Origin: Candidatus Poribacteria bacterium
GTDB taxonomy: Bacteria; Poribacteria; WGA-4E; WGA-3G
DNA: 64,000 nucleotides
NCBI GenBank assembly: GCA_022828145.1
Contig: JAJEJA010000073.1
Coordinates: 1 to 64,000, forward strand
Direction of reading: 5' to 3'
In this document: piece after piece, positions 1,997 to 28,396 of the stretch
Layout: each line of letters starts with the position of its first letter
How positions within the stretch are numbered: the first letter of the stretch is position 1
Notes under the pieces: model-generated
Database searches by the model: none
What the model was told of the DNA's origin: nothing
The model's input: the letters and a program-made list of their open reading frames with translations, nothing else
Program-made: the position numbers and the translations under genes

Positions 1997-2028
1997 GTTG
2001 CTTGATTACACCTTCATATTGAGGTGTG

Positions 2029-2292
2029 CTATTCAAAATATGCGGCGTTTATCTCTATGAAATGCTCCCATTCTTCTGGGACATCCTCTTCCATGAAGAT
2101 TGCCTCAACGGGACATTCGGGTTCACATACGCCACAATCGATGCATTCTTCGGGATCAATGTAGAGCATTTCAACCTCTTCAAATTCCTCTTCTGCATCT
2201 GTTGGATGGGGATGTATGCAATCGACAGGACAGACATCAACACAAGAGCTGTCTTTTTCGTCGATGCAAGGTTCGCAAATTACATAAGTCAT
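2029..2292 (-). CDS. 7Fe-type ferredoxin, copy 1 (last of three)
   Basis: An 87-residue ferredoxin. It has the Thermus/Azotobacter-type seven-iron pattern: EPC-x7-C-x3-CP-x2-C in the first half and CIDCGVCEPECPVEAI in the second, followed by the family's EEDVPEEWEHFIEIN tail. In this family Cys 8, 16 and 49 bind a [3Fe-4S] cluster and Cys 20, 39, 42 and 45 a [4Fe-4S] cluster (established for Azotobacter FdI; residue numbers are those of that protein). An acidic insert separates the two halves. It carries electrons in the cytoplasm; its partner is unknown. AAAGGAG precedes the ATG. Third ferredoxin of a probable sigma-unknown-unknown-Fd-Fd-Fd operon. Confidence 0.95.
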   Translation of the reverse strand: MTYVICEPCIDEKDSSCVDVCPVDCIHPHPTDAEEEFEEVEMLYIDPEECIDCGVCEPECPVEAIFMEEDVPEEWEHFIEINAAYFE

Positions 2293-2337
2293 AATAGAAT
2301 CTCCTTTATATTAAATTATATCAAACAATTTATCAAC

Positions 2338-2619
2338 TTATACGCCGTTTTTCTGTTTTTTGTAATAATCAGCGTTTATTTCAATGTAATGTTCCCATTC
2401 TTCAGGGACATCGTCTTCAAAAAAGATTGCTTCAACGGGACATTCAAGTTCACATACGCCACATTCAATGCATGTATCTGGATCAATGTAGAGTTGATCT
2501 ACTTTGTTGTATTCATCAGATTCATCAAACGGATTTGGACGAATGGATTCACATGGACATATATCAACACACTTACTATCTTTTACATCAACACACGGTT
2601 CACAGATGACGTAGGTCAT
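2338..2619 (-). CDS. 7Fe-type ferredoxin, copy 2 (divergent cysteine)
   Basis: A 93-residue paralogue of its two neighbours with the same N-terminal MTYVICEPC stretch, the CIECGVCELECPVEAI second motif and the DDVPEEWEHYIEIN tail, plus a longer lysine-containing C-terminus. The first motif differs: where the other two read CPVECI or CPVDCI this one reads CPCESI, so the usual non-ligand Cys (position 24 in Azotobacter numbering) is Ser and a new Cys is placed two residues earlier. All seven expected cluster ligands are still there. GGAGAAG sits before the ATG. It is separated by 45 bases from copy 1 and by 50 from copy 3. Confidence 0.94.
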   Translation of the reverse strand: MTYVICEPCVDVKDSKCVDICPCESIRPNPFDESDEYNKVDQLYIDPDTCIECGVCELECPVEAIFFEDDVPEEWEHYIEINADYYKKQKNGV

Positions 2620-2669
2620 TTTCTTCTCCTATTATTATATCCTATTTCCGTAAAATGTCAAATATTGTT

Positions 2670-2942
2670 TTATTCTTGAAAATAGTCAGCGTTTATTTGT
2701 ATGAAATGTTCCCACTCTTCAGGAACTTCTTCTTCAACGAAAATAGCCTCAACGGGACATGCTGGCTCACATATAGCACAATCAATACACTCCTCTGGGT
2801 CAATGTAGAGTTGTTCTTCTTCATCAAATTTATCGGGGTTATTGGGGTCATCACGCATTGGATGTATACATTCCACGGGACAGATCTCAGCACATGCGTG
2901 GTCTTTAACATCAATGCAAGGTTCGCAAATTACATACGTCAT
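2670..2942 (-). CDS. 7Fe-type ferredoxin, copy 3 (first in the series)
   Basis: A 90-residue ferredoxin starting at the ATG at 2942, chosen because it matches the MTYVICEPC start of both paralogues and has GGAGAGGAG upstream; the open frame extends 20 codons further but those codons lie over the end of the preceding gene. Both cluster motifs are intact (EPC-x7-C-x3-CPVEC and CIDCAICEPACPVEAI). The acidic insert between the motifs is the longest of the three (RDDPNNPDKFDEEE). The tandem triplication with diverged inserts suggests paralogues specialised for different partners or redox potentials, which is an inference. Confidence 0.94.
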   Translation of the reverse strand: MTYVICEPCIDVKDHACAEICPVECIHPMRDDPNNPDKFDEEEQLYIDPEECIDCAICEPACPVEAIFVEEEVPEEWEHFIQINADYFQE

Positions 2943-2976
2943 TTTGTTTTCTCCTCTCCTATTATTTTTTACTGCT

Positions 2977-3885
2977 TTAGGCATAAGGATATGCTCGGTC
3001 ATTTAATAGACTTGCTTCATTCCAATTCATTTCGCTTGTCCATTCAGGTTTTTTGCCTTCAATCTCTCCCATACCGTAACCAAGCACGCGATAGTTGATA
3101 CCTGTCATCACCGTGAGACGGAATGCCAATTCTTCAGCTTCAGAAATGTGCACCTCTATTTCAGGTTCCTTTACTAACTCAAACCCCTGATGCAGTAGTC
3201 TTACCTGTAGTCCGTGCTTTTCTATTTCTGATTGTAATCGTTGTGCTGCTTGTTGTACCAGCGAAAAGTCTACATCAATGTAACTTACCTCTTGATAGAG
3301 TCTAAACCCGCCGTGCCGAATGTATGCTTTTATTTCAAATTCTTCAGGTATAGAATCTTGTGGCATTTCTTTTATTACGGTTTCTAATTCTATCATATCG
3401 TCTGTCTGGTAGTCTGATGGATCATCTGGAAGAATTATTACCTTTATACCTGCGTGATAGACTTCAAATGGTAGTTCTTGTTCCGTAATTAGAGATTGAA
3501 ATACCTCTTTTACTTCTACCACTCGGTGCGTGGCTATCGTGAGTTTTTCAATCTTATTGTGTATTTCAGATAACGTGCTTCTGTGAGTAATCGTCCAGTT
3601 TCCGGTTATCGAGTTTTTGTTCAGATATGCATCTAATGCAGCTTCACCTTGCCAGTGCTTTAATATTGTTTCTTTATACTGCTTTGCTTTCTTTTCAGGT
3701 CCATGCACTAACTGACTATGCTGCTTTGCTGTTAGTTCAGTACCTTCCGCTAACTGCTTTAACTGTTTTTCTGTTGGTTTAGTACTTTCCACTATCAAGA
3801 GTGTGCCACCGTCAACCACGTCAACCGGTATTGCCAGTTCCTGAATTATGGATCTTAGTATTTCACTTACTTCAATAGGTTTCAC
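2977..3885 (-). CDS. Unknown protein with HGGFR and LLHxGF motifs (paralogue of the next gene upstream)
   Basis: A 302-residue cytoplasmic protein (no signal peptide or membrane segment) that I do not recognise. It is a paralogue of the gene at 3943-4665: both begin with an EVxEhhxxhIxELxhPhxhVD segment, and both contain HGGFR (191-195 here) followed about 37 residues later by LLHQGFEL (230-237) and an AFRLTV stretch (254-259). The N-terminal segment occurs twice inside this protein (about 5-27 and 124-147), so the protein has an internal duplication. Start is GTG at 3885 with a strong AAAGGAGG site; this GTG overlaps a TGA in the frame that the upstream paralogue would use if its frameshift were repaired, which argues for translational coupling. 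It lies between an ECF sigma gene and three ferredoxins. Confidence 0.8.
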   Translation of the reverse strand: MKPIEVSEILRSIIQELAIPVDVVDGGTLLIVESTKPTEKQLKQLAEGTELTAKQHSQLVHGPEKKAKQYKETILKHWQGEAALDAYLNKNSITGNWTITHRSTLSEIHNKIEKLTIATHRVVEVKEVFQSLITEQELPFEVYHAGIKVIILPDDPSDYQTDDMIELETVIKEMPQDSIPEEFEIKAYIRHGGFRLYQEVSYIDVDFSLVQQAAQRLQSEIEKHGLQVRLLHQGFELVKEPEIEVHISEAEELAFRLTVMTGINYRVLGYGMGEIEGKKPEWTSEMNWNEASLLNDRAYPYA

Positions 3886-24856: not shown

Positions 24857-26074
24857 TTATAGGAGATGTCCGAGTTTCGTTCGTTTCGTCTGCAAATAAT
24901 TCTGATTATAACAGTTTGGTGTTGTCTGTAAAGGGATCTGTTCAACGATTTCCAACCCGTATCCTGATAGTCCTTTGACTTTTTGAGGGTTGTTCGTCAT
25001 GAGTTGCATCTTTTTCACACCTAAATCAACGAGTATCTGTGCCCCGATTCCGTAATCTCTTAGATCCGGTGGATATCCGAGCCTTTCGTTTGCTTCGACT
25101 GTGTCAAGTCCTTCATTATCTTGTAGGCTATATGCTCGGATTTTGTCTTTGAGTCCCATGCCTCTGCCTTCTTGCCGCATATAAAGTAGCACGCCTCTTT
25201 CCTCTTTCTCAATGTTTCCGAGTGCGATTTTTAGCTGCTCACCGCAGTCGCAGCGCAGCGAGCCGAAAACATCACCTGTCAAACATTGTGAGTGAACCCT
25301 AACTAAGATGGGACCTTTATCGCGGATTTTTCCTTTGGTTAAAGCGATGTGGGTTTCTGTTGAATCACTCGGTGCTGGTGTGCCATCAACGTTACTTTCG
25401 TAAGCGTGGAGTTTGAATTCCCCATGCACAGTCGGAATTGCTGCAGTTGAGACTTTTTTGATAAGCGTTTCAGTGCGTCTACGGTATGCAATGAGGTCAG
25501 AAATGGTAATGATTTTTAAATTGTGTTCTTGTGCAAATTTGAATAGTTCGGGGACACGTGCCATGCTACCATCATCGTTCAATACTTCACAGAGAACGCC
25601 TGCGGGATATAACCCTGCGAGTCTTGCTAAATCCACTGTCGCTTCCGTATGTCCTGCGCGCCTGAGAACACCGCCGGGTTTCGCTTCTAATGGAAAGATG
25701 TGTCCTGGCCGTACAAAATCGGTTGGTACAGCATCTTCATCAACGAATTTTTTGATAGTATATGCGCGTTCCTGTGCTGAAATCCCGGTAGTAACTTCCT
25801 TCGCATCTATCGTGACAGTAAATGCAGTTTGCATCTGTGCGGTGTTGTCTACCACCATTGGATAAAGCTGCAGGTCAGTGAGCCGTTCGGAACAGGTTGG
25901 TAGACAGATTAACCCGCGTCCGTATTTTGCCATAAAGTTGATTGATTCAGGTGTTACCTTTTCCGCCGCCATGATCAGGTCACCCTCATTTTCGCGGTCG
26001 GGTTCATCAACGACGATAATCATCTCACCGTCTTTAATAGCTGAGATTGCATCGGGAATGGTACTAAATTCCAT
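24857..26074 (-). CDS. ribBA: Bifunctional RibBA (DHBP synthase / GTP cyclohydrolase II)
   Basis: A 405-residue fusion. Residues 1-200 are 3,4-dihydroxy-2-butanone-4-phosphate synthase (DEPDRENEGDLIMAAEKVTPE, RPGHIFPLEAKPGGVLRRAGHTEATVDLARLAG, LCEVLNDDGSMAR). Residues 205-400 are GTP cyclohydrolase II with the zinc ligands in SQCLTGDVFGSLRCDCGEQL and the catalytic RQEGRGMGL region, then GAQILVDLGV and TNNPQKVKGLSGYGL. It makes both riboflavin precursors. It lies 24 bases after ribE. Confidence 0.97.
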   Translation of the reverse strand: MEFSTIPDAISAIKDGEMIIVVDEPDRENEGDLIMAAEKVTPESINFMAKYGRGLICLPTCSERLTDLQLYPMVVDNTAQMQTAFTVTIDAKEVTTGISAQERAYTIKKFVDEDAVPTDFVRPGHIFPLEAKPGGVLRRAGHTEATVDLARLAGLYPAGVLCEVLNDDGSMARVPELFKFAQEHNLKIITISDLIAYRRRTETLIKKVSTAAIPTVHGEFKLHAYESNVDGTPAPSDSTETHIALTKGKIRDKGPILVRVHSQCLTGDVFGSLRCDCGEQLKIALGNIEKEERGVLLYMRQEGRGMGLKDKIRAYSLQDNEGLDTVEANERLGYPPDLRDYGIGAQILVDLGVKKMQLMTNNPQKVKGLSGYGLEIVEQIPLQTTPNCYNQNYLQTKRTKLGHLL

Positions 26075-26098
26075 AAATCTGTCTCCACCTTGCGTTTT

Positions 26099-26743
26099 TT
26101 AGGCATACCCATGTTTTTGTAGGTAGTTTAAATCTATTGTATTGACAGGTGTTTTCTGATTCTGTATTAACGTTTCTATGTAACGTGCCATAACATCTAC
26201 CTCAATATTGACAACGTCCCCTACCCGCTTATTGCCCAGGGTTGTAACATTTAAGGTATGCGGAATGAGTGTCACTTCGAATTTGTTGTCAGGAACATTA
26301 GAAATCGTTAAACTCACGCCATCGACAGCAATTGAACCTTTATAGGCTATGTAAGGTCTAACATTTTGGCTGACTGTGACCTGCATAATGGACGAAGAAC
26401 CTTCTCTTTTCCATCCACTGATAGTGGCAATTTCGTCAACATGTCCTAAAACAAGATGTCCTCCCAGTCGGTCTCCTAATCTAAGTGACCGTTCCAGGTT
26501 GACAGGTGTGCCGACTCTACATGAGCGTAACGTAGTCCTGCGACATGTTTCTTCGCTAATGTCAGTGATAAATCCATCTTCATTGCGTTCGCGTACTGTT
26601 AGACAAGGGCCGTTAACTGCGATACTATCACCTACCTGTGTATCTTCCATCACATTCTCGGCATTGATTTTGATAGTAAGACCGCTGGATTTTGTATGTA
26701 CTTCGGTGATCGTTCCGATTTCTTCAATGATTCCGGTAAACAT
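26099..26743 (-). CDS. ribE: Riboflavin synthase alpha subunit
   Basis: A 214-residue protein with two lumazine-binding repeats: MFTGIIEEIGTI at the start, GDSIAVNGPCLTV in the first and GSIAVDGVSLTIS in the second; GGHLVLGHVDEIATI joins them. It dismutates two lumazines into riboflavin. Its start overlaps the 3' end of ribD by 20 bases, so translation is probably coupled. Confidence 0.96.
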   Translation of the reverse strand: MFTGIIEEIGTITEVHTKSSGLTIKINAENVMEDTQVGDSIAVNGPCLTVRERNEDGFITDISEETCRRTTLRSCRVGTPVNLERSLRLGDRLGGHLVLGHVDEIATISGWKREGSSSIMQVTVSQNVRPYIAYKGSIAVDGVSLTISNVPDNKFEVTLIPHTLNVTTLGNKRVGDVVNIEVDVMARYIETLIQNQKTPVNTIDLNYLQKHGYA

Positions 26744-27845
26744 TATTTGTCAAATACCCTTCAATTAACAGATCGCGTTCAAATTGCGTGACTGTAAGTT
26801 GTTCTAATTCAGGTGCTTCTGTCAGATGCTTTATGCCTTCACCGTCAAATACGCCGCGTGCTTCTTTTCCTCCGATAAGTTTCGGAGCAATAAAACACAG
26901 GAGCTTATCCACAATCTCTGAAGAGAGTGCGCTTGCGTTGACCTTTCCGCCTCCTTCAACCAAAACACTTGTTATACCGCGCTCCCCTAATAACGCCATC
27001 AATGATTTAAAACAGACCTGGCCATCTTTTTCAGGTATAACGAAGACTTCTGCTCCTGCTTCTTTTAGAGCCGCTATGTTTTTCTTAGAAGCATTAGGTG
27101 TAACAGCAATAATGACATCTGCATCACTCTGAGAGTTAATGACTCTTGCATCAGGAGGTGTGCGTCCGTGTGAATCTAATATAATACGTGTTGCGTCTTT
27201 TCCCTGTTTGTCTGTTAATCTTGTCGTTAATGCTGGATTATCACTGATAACGGTTCCGATTCCGACTAATATTGCGTCTACTTCATCACGTATTTTATGA
27301 ACTCGGTGTCTTGATTCGGGTGATGTTATCCATTGCGATTCACCTGTTGCAGTTGCGATTTTTCCATCAAGGCTCATTGCCGTTTTGAGTATTACGAAAG
27401 GGTATCCTGTTTTGATGTATTTTATGTAGATTTCGTTTAGTTTCTCTGCTGCATCTTGACACAAACCGATGTTAGTTTCTACTCCTGATTTTTCTAATAT
27501 TTTTATACCTTTCCCCGCGACTTTAGGATTCGGGTCTTCGTGTGCAATATATACCTTTGCGATTTCGGCATTCAGGATCGCGTCCGTACAGGGGGGTGTT
27601 CGTCCTGAATGGCAACACGGTTCAAGGTTGACATAGAGTGTAGCACCTTTTGCGTTTTCTTGTGCTGCGCGTAATGCATGTATCTCTGCGTGCGGTTCAC
27701 CTGCTTTTTGATGATATCCTTCGCCTACGATTTTTCCTCCATTGACTATCACCGCGCCGACATAGGGATTTGGACTTGTTCGTCCTCTTCCGTATTCCGC
27801 TAAAGTTATGGAGCGTTTCATAAATACTATGTGTGTGTTATGCAT
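26724..27845 (-). CDS. ribD: Bifunctional riboflavin biosynthesis deaminase/reductase RibD
   Basis: A 373-residue fusion. The N-terminal deaminase (1-145) has the zinc site HAEIHAL (about residue 53) and EPCCHSGRTPPC (about 77-88). The C-terminal reductase (about 150-370) has ILKTAMSLDGKIATATGESQWITS, DAILVGIGTVISDNPALTTR and LVEGGGKVNASAL. First gene of ribD-ribE-ribBA-ribH. The leader of only about 65 bases has no room for an FMN riboswitch and shows none of its conserved elements. Confidence 0.96.
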   Translation of the reverse strand: MHNTHIVFMKRSITLAEYGRGRTSPNPYVGAVIVNGGKIVGEGYHQKAGEPHAEIHALRAAQENAKGATLYVNLEPCCHSGRTPPCTDAILNAEIAKVYIAHEDPNPKVAGKGIKILEKSGVETNIGLCQDAAEKLNEIYIKYIKTGYPFVILKTAMSLDGKIATATGESQWITSPESRHRVHKIRDEVDAILVGIGTVISDNPALTTRLTDKQGKDATRIILDSHGRTPPDARVINSQSDADVIIAVTPNASKKNIAALKEAGAEVFVIPEKDGQVCFKSLMALLGERGITSVLVEGGGKVNASALSSEIVDKLLCFIAPKLIGGKEARGVFDGEGIKHLTEAPELEQLTVTQFERDLLIEGYLTNNVYRNH

Positions 27846-27910: not shown

Positions 27911-28396
27911 TCATTTTAGTGACTTCAGACAATCGATGAGTTCTGTCTGGTCAACCCTATCAAACTGATGTGATCCGATATACATATACCGGACAATGCC
28001 GAGCATGTCAATGATGAAGGTTGCTGGTCGTGCAATGTTGTATGCTTCAAAGCTGAGCCAGTGATATACGCCATAACTTTTGATAACGCTACGATCTTTA
28101 TCTACTAATAGGGGGAAGGTAATACCGTTACGTTCAGCGAAACCGCGTAATTCCCGGGGCCACTGTCCTGCAATAGCTAACGGTGTTGCGTTATGTGTTG
28201 CATAATCCTCAACGTGTTCTTGTACAGCAGCCAACTGGCGGCGGCTATTGGGTCACCATGTGCCTCTGAAGAAGGTCAGAATTACGTGCTGTTCTTCCTT
28301 AAAGGATTCAAGTGTCACTATCTGCCGACGATGTGATGGCAGTGAGAATAGTGGTGCTGTATCACCAATGTTTAGGATTTTGTTTTGTCTTGGCAT
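27911..28396 (-). CDS. Peroxiredoxin-like selenoprotein (in-frame TGA as selenocysteine)
   Basis: Reading through one TGA (28253-28255) gives a continuous 161-residue AhpC/TSA-like protein: NIGDTAPLFSLPSHRRQIVTL, then ILTFFRGTW-[TGA]-PNSRRQLAAVQEHV, then FPLLVDKDRSVIKSYGVYHW and RPATFIIDMLGIVRYMYIGS. In cysteine homologues this place reads FRGxWCPxCRRQL, so the TGA replaces exactly the redox-active Cys and the second Cys is Ser (UxxS). The two halves are in the same frame. A stem-loop with apical AGTT lies 16 bases after the TGA, fitting the bacterial SECIS model. The protein probably reduces peroxides or is a thiol oxidoreductase. The start is the ATG at 28396; no clear ribosome site. Without selenium it would be truncated at 47 residues. 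Confidence 0.82.
28224..28245 (-). promoter_or_regulatory. Putative bacterial SECIS stem-loop
   Basis: On the minus strand, starting 8 bases after the TGA: GCCGCCGCC-AGTT-GGCTGCTGT folds as a stem of seven pairs with two C.U mismatches and a four-base loop AGTT. The loop starts 17 bases after the TGA and has G at its second position, both as required by the published bacterial SECIS pattern (G in the first two loop bases, 16-37 base distance). Confidence 0.55.

Follow-up and report, generated by a model that had tools for sequence, protein, structure and literature searches.

An AhpC/TSA-like selenoprotein gene with a UPNS motif, conserved in Candidatus Poribacteria

Selenocysteine (Sec)-containing relatives of the AhpC/TSA proteins are an already known kind of selenoprotein. 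'Prx-like' selenoproteins are named in the Sargasso Sea paper (PMC1088965), and two reviews (PMC13188914, PMC9312934) describe Prx-like thiol:disulfide oxidoreductases of the PF00578 family that carry UxxC or UxxU motifs, the UGC forms being given separately. They also include an AhpC/TSA selenoprotein with a UxxS motif from the delta symbiont of Olavius algarvensis, assigned to cd02970 in PMC13188914 and to pfam13911 in PMC9312934, and the review listing gives TxxU as the motif of PrxU, the Sec peroxiredoxin of Eubacterium acidaminophilum. PMC13188914 gives MDX2448127.1 as its UxxS protein. With regard to nomenclature, PMC9312934 applies the rule that proteins with the same domain and a different Sec motif are different subfamilies. 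Related to the organisms, SelA and SelB co-occur in most of the sponge-symbiont bins covered by PMC5649159. The initial annotation of the DNA described here stated that no selenoprotein of this sort was known from the lineage. In the portions of the literature searched no Poribacteria selenoprotein was found, and to this extent the statement stands, but the enrichment of SelA and SelB in sponge symbionts had already been published there. The same portions of the literature yielded no UxxS motif on PF00578.

The gene lies in the window, i.e. the whole stretch of 64,000 nucleotides that was analysed, at 27911..28396 on the minus strand. It is a frame of 161 residues running from 28396 to 27911, in which an in-frame TGA (28255-28253) occupies codon 48 and a second TGA (27913-27911) is the terminal stop. 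Read-through translation gives FFRGTW-TGA-PNSRRQL as the exact context of codon 48 and confirms what had been proposed for this region, namely a TGA between FFRGTW and PNSRRQL, the same frame on both sides and 113 coding residues beyond it. The matches to PF00578 (AhpC-TSA; 96.1 bits, cut-off 26, residues 10-138) and PF08534 (Redoxin; 58.2 bits) both span the TGA, and a scan of the read-through protein against NCBIfam gave no model at cut-off and eight weak matches. The codons of the orthologues and the existence of Cys homologues indicate that the TGA (28253..28255, minus strand) is read as Sec48, within a UPNS motif whose last residue, Ser51, is encoded at 28244..28246. The product, an AhpC/TSA-like oxidoreductase of the thioredoxin fold, is almost certainly a selenoprotein. 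Standard gene callers would probably truncate or overlook genes of this class.

The protein shares with the Prx-like UxxC/UxxU proteins, as the reviews list them, the PF00578 domain and a Sec that opens the xxC motif. However, the second position is Cys or Sec in the known forms and Ser in the window protein (UPNS, 51/51 distinct orthologues); with Ser51 three residues past Sec throughout, it falls outside that subfamily. The UxxS motif and the AhpC/TSA superfamily are common to this protein and the Olavius entry, as the latter is listed, but the window protein reaches 14.7 bits on PF13911 (AhpC-TSA_2; cut-off 27), by which membership of that family is rejected, against 96.1 bits on PF00578; kinship through cd02970 is possible. 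Following the same listing, PrxU also combines the AhpC/TSA fold with Sec in the active-site loop; the window protein, by contrast, has its Sec three residues further towards the N-terminus and lacks the Prx catalytic residues. Under the naming rule of PMC9312934, a PF00578 protein with UxxS would count as a subfamily of its own, and the combination of UPNS and PF00578 is not among the UxxS entries in the accessible portions of the reviews. The UPNS form is a variant of the Prx-like kind, which extends a known theme and opens no new kind.

Compared by sequence as well as by fold, the 1-Cys peroxiredoxin AhpE of Mycobacterium tuberculosis (PDB 1xvw, 4x0x) is one of the nearest solved structures. 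Both proteins have a single redox residue, but at the positions of Ser51 and Pro124 AhpE carries the Cys and Arg of the peroxiredoxins. Plasmids of Aureibacter, Rhizobium and Bradyrhizobium encode Cys-containing counterparts with about 28-30% identity; these are annotated as 'peroxiredoxin-like family protein', and we take them to be cd02970-like. Their FYRGxWCPYC aligns with FFRGTWUPNS, so that they have a CxxC motif with two Cys. The homologues yielded by the plasmid search are below 60% identity, and in the 5 of 120 matched records that were compared, column 48 is Cys in three (L135-L137; Bacteroidota, Pseudomonadota) and Ser in two archaeal proteins, in whose SPVC motif the Ser aligns with Sec48 and the Cys with Ser51.

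In the initial annotation the TGA replaced the catalytic Cys of a peroxiredoxin, which is not borne out by the alignment columns. When the protein is aligned with AhpE, Bcp4 and homologues, the Thr of PxxxTxxC corresponds to Sec48 and its peroxidatic Cys to Ser51; in AhpE, Ser51 is matched by the Cys of PLAFTGIC and Sec48 by the residue of the Thr column. Altogether, the Pro, Thr, Cys and Arg positions of the peroxiredoxins are occupied by Arg44, Sec48, Ser51 and Pro124, and the canonical peroxiredoxin of the same genome (L110, FYPLDFSPVC ... TTRGVF) has Cys at the Ser51 column and Arg at the Pro124 column. In the UxxC and CxxC relatives, the residue aligned with Pro124 is the proline of PATF, presumably the cis-proline of thioredoxins, and in the cd02970 proteins we assume a CxxC motif in which the second Cys is the Prx position. 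With Sec48 aligned to the Thr and Ser51 to the peroxidatic Cys, Ser51 takes the place of the second CxxC cysteine. The earlier description was of a resolving Cys changed to Ser (UxxS), but the Cys for which Ser51 stands is not the resolving Cys of peroxiredoxins. An alignment of 21 orthologues has a single invariant Cys/Sec column, position 48, and Gln78 and Trp79 are invariant in it as well.

An AlphaFold2 model was computed with 17 closely related rows as input. Its confidence is poor (mean pLDDT 63.6, pTM 0.64), and for this reason no distances were measured on it. The model predicts a helix at 49-60, immediately after residue 48, and a strand at 70-76, just ahead of Gln78-Trp79. The best Foldseek chains for it are Bcp4, Bcp1, AhpE and ResA, and model and fold search together would indicate a Prx/Trx-type fold.

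As far as sequence comparison can tell, the most fitting description of the UPNS protein is a single-selenol, thioredoxin-like oxidoreductase, not a peroxiredoxin. We consider it probable that this is a thioredoxin-fold selenoprotein, with UGA 48 decoded by SelB with the aid of a 3' hairpin, which acts as a single-selenol oxidoreductase. SelB and Sec-tRNA(Sec) would decode the UGA at codon 48, and the hairpin just 3' of the UGA would assist the decoding. The selenol would lie where the active-site helix begins, in the place of the first, nucleophilic Cys of thioredoxin-like CxxC proteins. From there Sec48 could attack a peroxide or a disulfide substrate, and an external thiol (a low-molecular-weight thiol or a redoxin) would clear the selenenic acid or the mixed selenenylsulfide. 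The single-selenol mechanism is the most likely one because the second Cys is Ser51 and there is no other invariant Cys. A Sec-using peroxidase or oxidoreductase had been suggested for this gene; the use of Sec is upheld, but the alignment columns do not show the active site of a peroxiredoxin.

It is also conceivable, though unlikely, that the protein works in the manner of GPx4, with Sec at the helix start, the invariant Gln78-Trp79 pair assisting and peroxides being reduced with an external thiol. The catalytic site of GPx has Gln and Trp, and the invariance of Gln78 and Trp79 in the 21 orthologues, at a place that the model predicts to be just past strand 70-76, would be consistent with such a site. 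Besides, UxxS resembles the UxxT motif given for GPx in PMC13188914. Nevertheless, PF00255 was unmatched at E up to 10, Trp79 is absent from most of the aligned homologues and the model is too weak for a distance measurement.

Considerably less probable than GPx-like catalysis is a strict Sec peroxiredoxin with the TGA at the peroxidatic Cys, which was the original proposal. It draws on PF00578 as the best Pfam family and on the presence of AhpE, a 1-Cys peroxiredoxin, and of Bcp proteins among the best PDB sequence matches. However, Ser51 stands at the peroxidatic Cys column, Sec at the Thr column and Arg44 and Pro124 at the Pro and Arg columns, whereas in separate paralogues of the same genome (FYPKDFTGGU, FYPRDFGRGU) the Sec does occupy the true Prx position or one close to it. 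A strict peroxiredoxin was rejected on the active-site columns, which contain neither PxxxTxxC/U nor the catalytic Arg.

The distribution of the gene was studied in 84 genomes of one phylum, taking as orthologues the sequences with identity of at least 58%. A match of some kind (E-value of 1e-15 or lower) appeared in 73 of them and an orthologue in 66 (partial in G054), with one TGA in 65 and no TGA in G028. By family, the orthologue is present in 56 of the 58 genomes of the window's family; two further families of the same order have it in 2/2 and 8/9 genomes, and the fourth in 0/3. A scan of named genomes with one protein query and short patterns, whose reach is close relatives, gave 34 loci, all of them from Candidatus or uncultured Poribacteria and the best one 91% identical. 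Sec is retained as the sole invariant redox residue in this large lineage of uncultured sponge symbionts.

For codon analysis, 75 orthologous loci (E up to 1e-30) were reduced to 51 distinct sequences by collapsing the identical ones and omitting one duplicate of the window gene; about 15 orthologues without a named locus are outside this set, although some of them recur among the named loci. Codon 48 is TGA in 50 of the distinct sequences and TGT (Cys) in one, and FFRGTW-x-PNSRRQL, Ser51 included, is invariant in 51/51. The median dN/dS is 0.095 before the TGA and 0.077 after it, as obtained from the 228 of 1275 sequence pairs with dS of 0.1-1.5 on both sides. The read-through of the TGA goes beyond chance, because TGA is found in 50/51 orthologues and dN/dS is low on both sides, and 28396-27911 is a real, well-conserved selenoprotein gene. 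The initial annotation had proposed looking for Cys homologues aligned at the TGA, and these exist (one orthologue and three plasmid homologues). It had also considered that relatives might conserve the stop as the terminus of a short protein, which is not so, as coding selection persists past it.

A true stop at codon 48, with a 47-residue product and a separately started downstream protein, or else a decayed gene, is very improbable. There is indeed a TTG-started ORF past the TGA (27911..28234), and TGA itself properly ends the frame; but dN/dS is close to 0.08-0.10 on either side of codon 48, FFRGTW and PNSRRQ are invariant in 51/51, one orthologue continues uninterrupted with Cys at codon 48, and the genome contains the Sec machinery. 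Both versions were rejected on the conservation of the orthologues and the low dN/dS past the TGA.

In a tree of 35 rows, for which the program gave a long-branch warning, the 16 UPNS rows (15 with Sec and one with Cys) form one clade with support 100/99. The Cys copy is nested inside it, beside the TGA-bearing L077 and L050 (support 99/94), and therefore represents a derived Sec-to-Cys change. This TGT orthologue (L070 / L034 / L108) belongs to genome G028, where selB and a paralogue with TGA (L109) are still present. The hairpin downstream of the orthologue's Cys codon remains foldable (-12.0), which suggests, from the sequence, that the change is recent. The natural reversal provides a matched Sec/Cys pair bearing on what Sec gains without a resolving Cys. 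In another genome, G010, there is a homologue (L103) with CxxC and no TGA; this assembly is 61% complete and has no SelB match over the cut-off. The pattern may fit a loss of Sec use, or may be due to incompleteness.

Profile searches of the window's own genome revealed selA (525 bits), selB (354 bits) and selD (370 bits), and a tRNA-Sec with anticodon TCA (UCA) that starts 113 nt after selB. A lack of selA, selB or selD was to have spoken against the initial annotation, and all three are present. The selD gene has a single in-frame TGA of its own, in MKKRNVRLTKTVKCAGU. Across the phylum, SelB is over the cut-off in 75/84 genomes and in 61 of the 66 having the orthologue; the five orthologue-bearing genomes without a full SelB match over the cut-off are assemblies 73-83% complete. 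Reassignment of UGA to Trp or Gly in the genome, which would equally explain a TGA read through at codon 48, is hardly credible and was rejected in view of tRNA-Sec(TCA) together with SelA/B/D, the TGA that terminates the selenoprotein gene itself, and a column 48 where Cys, and not Trp or Gly, is found in 3/5 plasmid homologues and in L070.

Synonymous entropy and constrained folding point to a candidate bacterial SECIS hairpin at 28224..28246 (minus strand), with an apical AGUU loop at 28236-28233. A stem-loop with G in the loop had been noticed 16 nt past the TGA, and it is there: the hairpin of the window is GCC-AGUU-GGC, its loop begins at that distance and G is at loop position 2. The normalised synonymous entropy has its minimum, 0.46, at codons 49-56 (0.55 to 0.85 in the other nineteen eight-codon blocks), Gln54 is CAG in 51/51 and Leu55 is TTG or TTA only. 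With positions 20-22 kept in the loop (TGA = 1-3), the mean energy of the constrained hairpin is -7.55, as compared with -3.88 (sd 0.44) in synonymous redraws, 0/100 of which were as low. Codon 48 is the first of 148 start positions by raw energy and the second by excess stability, after codon 47, the top rank of which reflects the identical stem shifted by one codon. Position 24 is G in 44 sequences, and in these the loop is AGUU; in the remaining seven it is AGUUA. Among those 44, C19-G24 pairs in 44/44, 17-26 in 43, 14-29 in 41, 15-28 in 39, 18-25 in 34 and 16-27 in 25. Column-wise codon shuffles (within column and residue) reach the observed mean energy in 23/200, no significant covariation beyond the column shuffle was detected among the 51 distinct orthologues, and RNAalifold on all 51 gave a weak consensus (-0.09). 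Since the shuffles are nearly as stable and this consensus is weak, the candidate hairpin is backed by codon choice and not by covariation. A scan of the window with Rfam at the gathering threshold returned two tRNAs only and no SECIS.

The selenoprotein gene adjoins, on the same strand, a riboflavin cluster (24857-27845), for which no FMN riboswitch was detected by Rfam at the gathering threshold. The three genes, all on the minus strand, are presumably ribD-like (26724..27845, directly downstream), riboflavin synthase alpha-like (26099..26743) and ribBA-like (24857..26074), as judged from their ORFs and the synteny. In 33 of the 34 named loci the gene is followed, on its own strand, by a ribD match, with the start of the alignment within 400 nt in 29/34. 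In family f2 the ribD match starts about 0.6 kb away in both loci, and in family f3 there was no ribD match within the stretch examined in any of 8 loci (one of which stops at a contig edge). The adjacency suggests cotranscription in one family and not a functional link.

A wider description can be put forward tentatively, namely that of a PF00578 thioredoxin-like selenoprotein subfamily absent from the reviews consulted, in which the Prx residues and the partner Cys were lost and one Sec (UPNS) remains, perhaps in a convergent GPx-like Sec-Gln-Trp site, and which has been kept nearly throughout one Poribacteria order, beside riboflavin genes in much of it.

The same genome contains 26 matches to PF00578, seven of them with one TGA, and the motifs include UPFC, UGSC, UPNC, UGC, TGGU and GRGU forms. 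The table of read-through paralogues consisted mostly of chance frames, and only those in the context of an AhpC/TSA active site were counted. Six further AhpC/TSA genes have one in-frame TGA each, with UxxC, UGC or true Prx-position (TxxU-like) motifs; they are found at C3:4802-5626, C59:175669-176885, C60:441-809 and C122:7049-7387, two of these loci being tandem pairs. Shortly after the TGA of three UxxC paralogue genes, and of L109 in G028, the same palindromic 17-nt hairpin, GCAACTCGGTGAGTTGC, occurs, its loop being GGU (L083 1638-1654, L083 2477-2493, L085 566-582 and L109 1138-1154, by sequence match). It is likely the shared SECIS of the UxxC paralogues, unlike the AGUU loop of the window gene. 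Paired adjacent TGA-bearing Prx-like genes also occur in several genomes of the Poribacteria phylum, such as those at L107 (G017; 2001-3682), L104 and L105.
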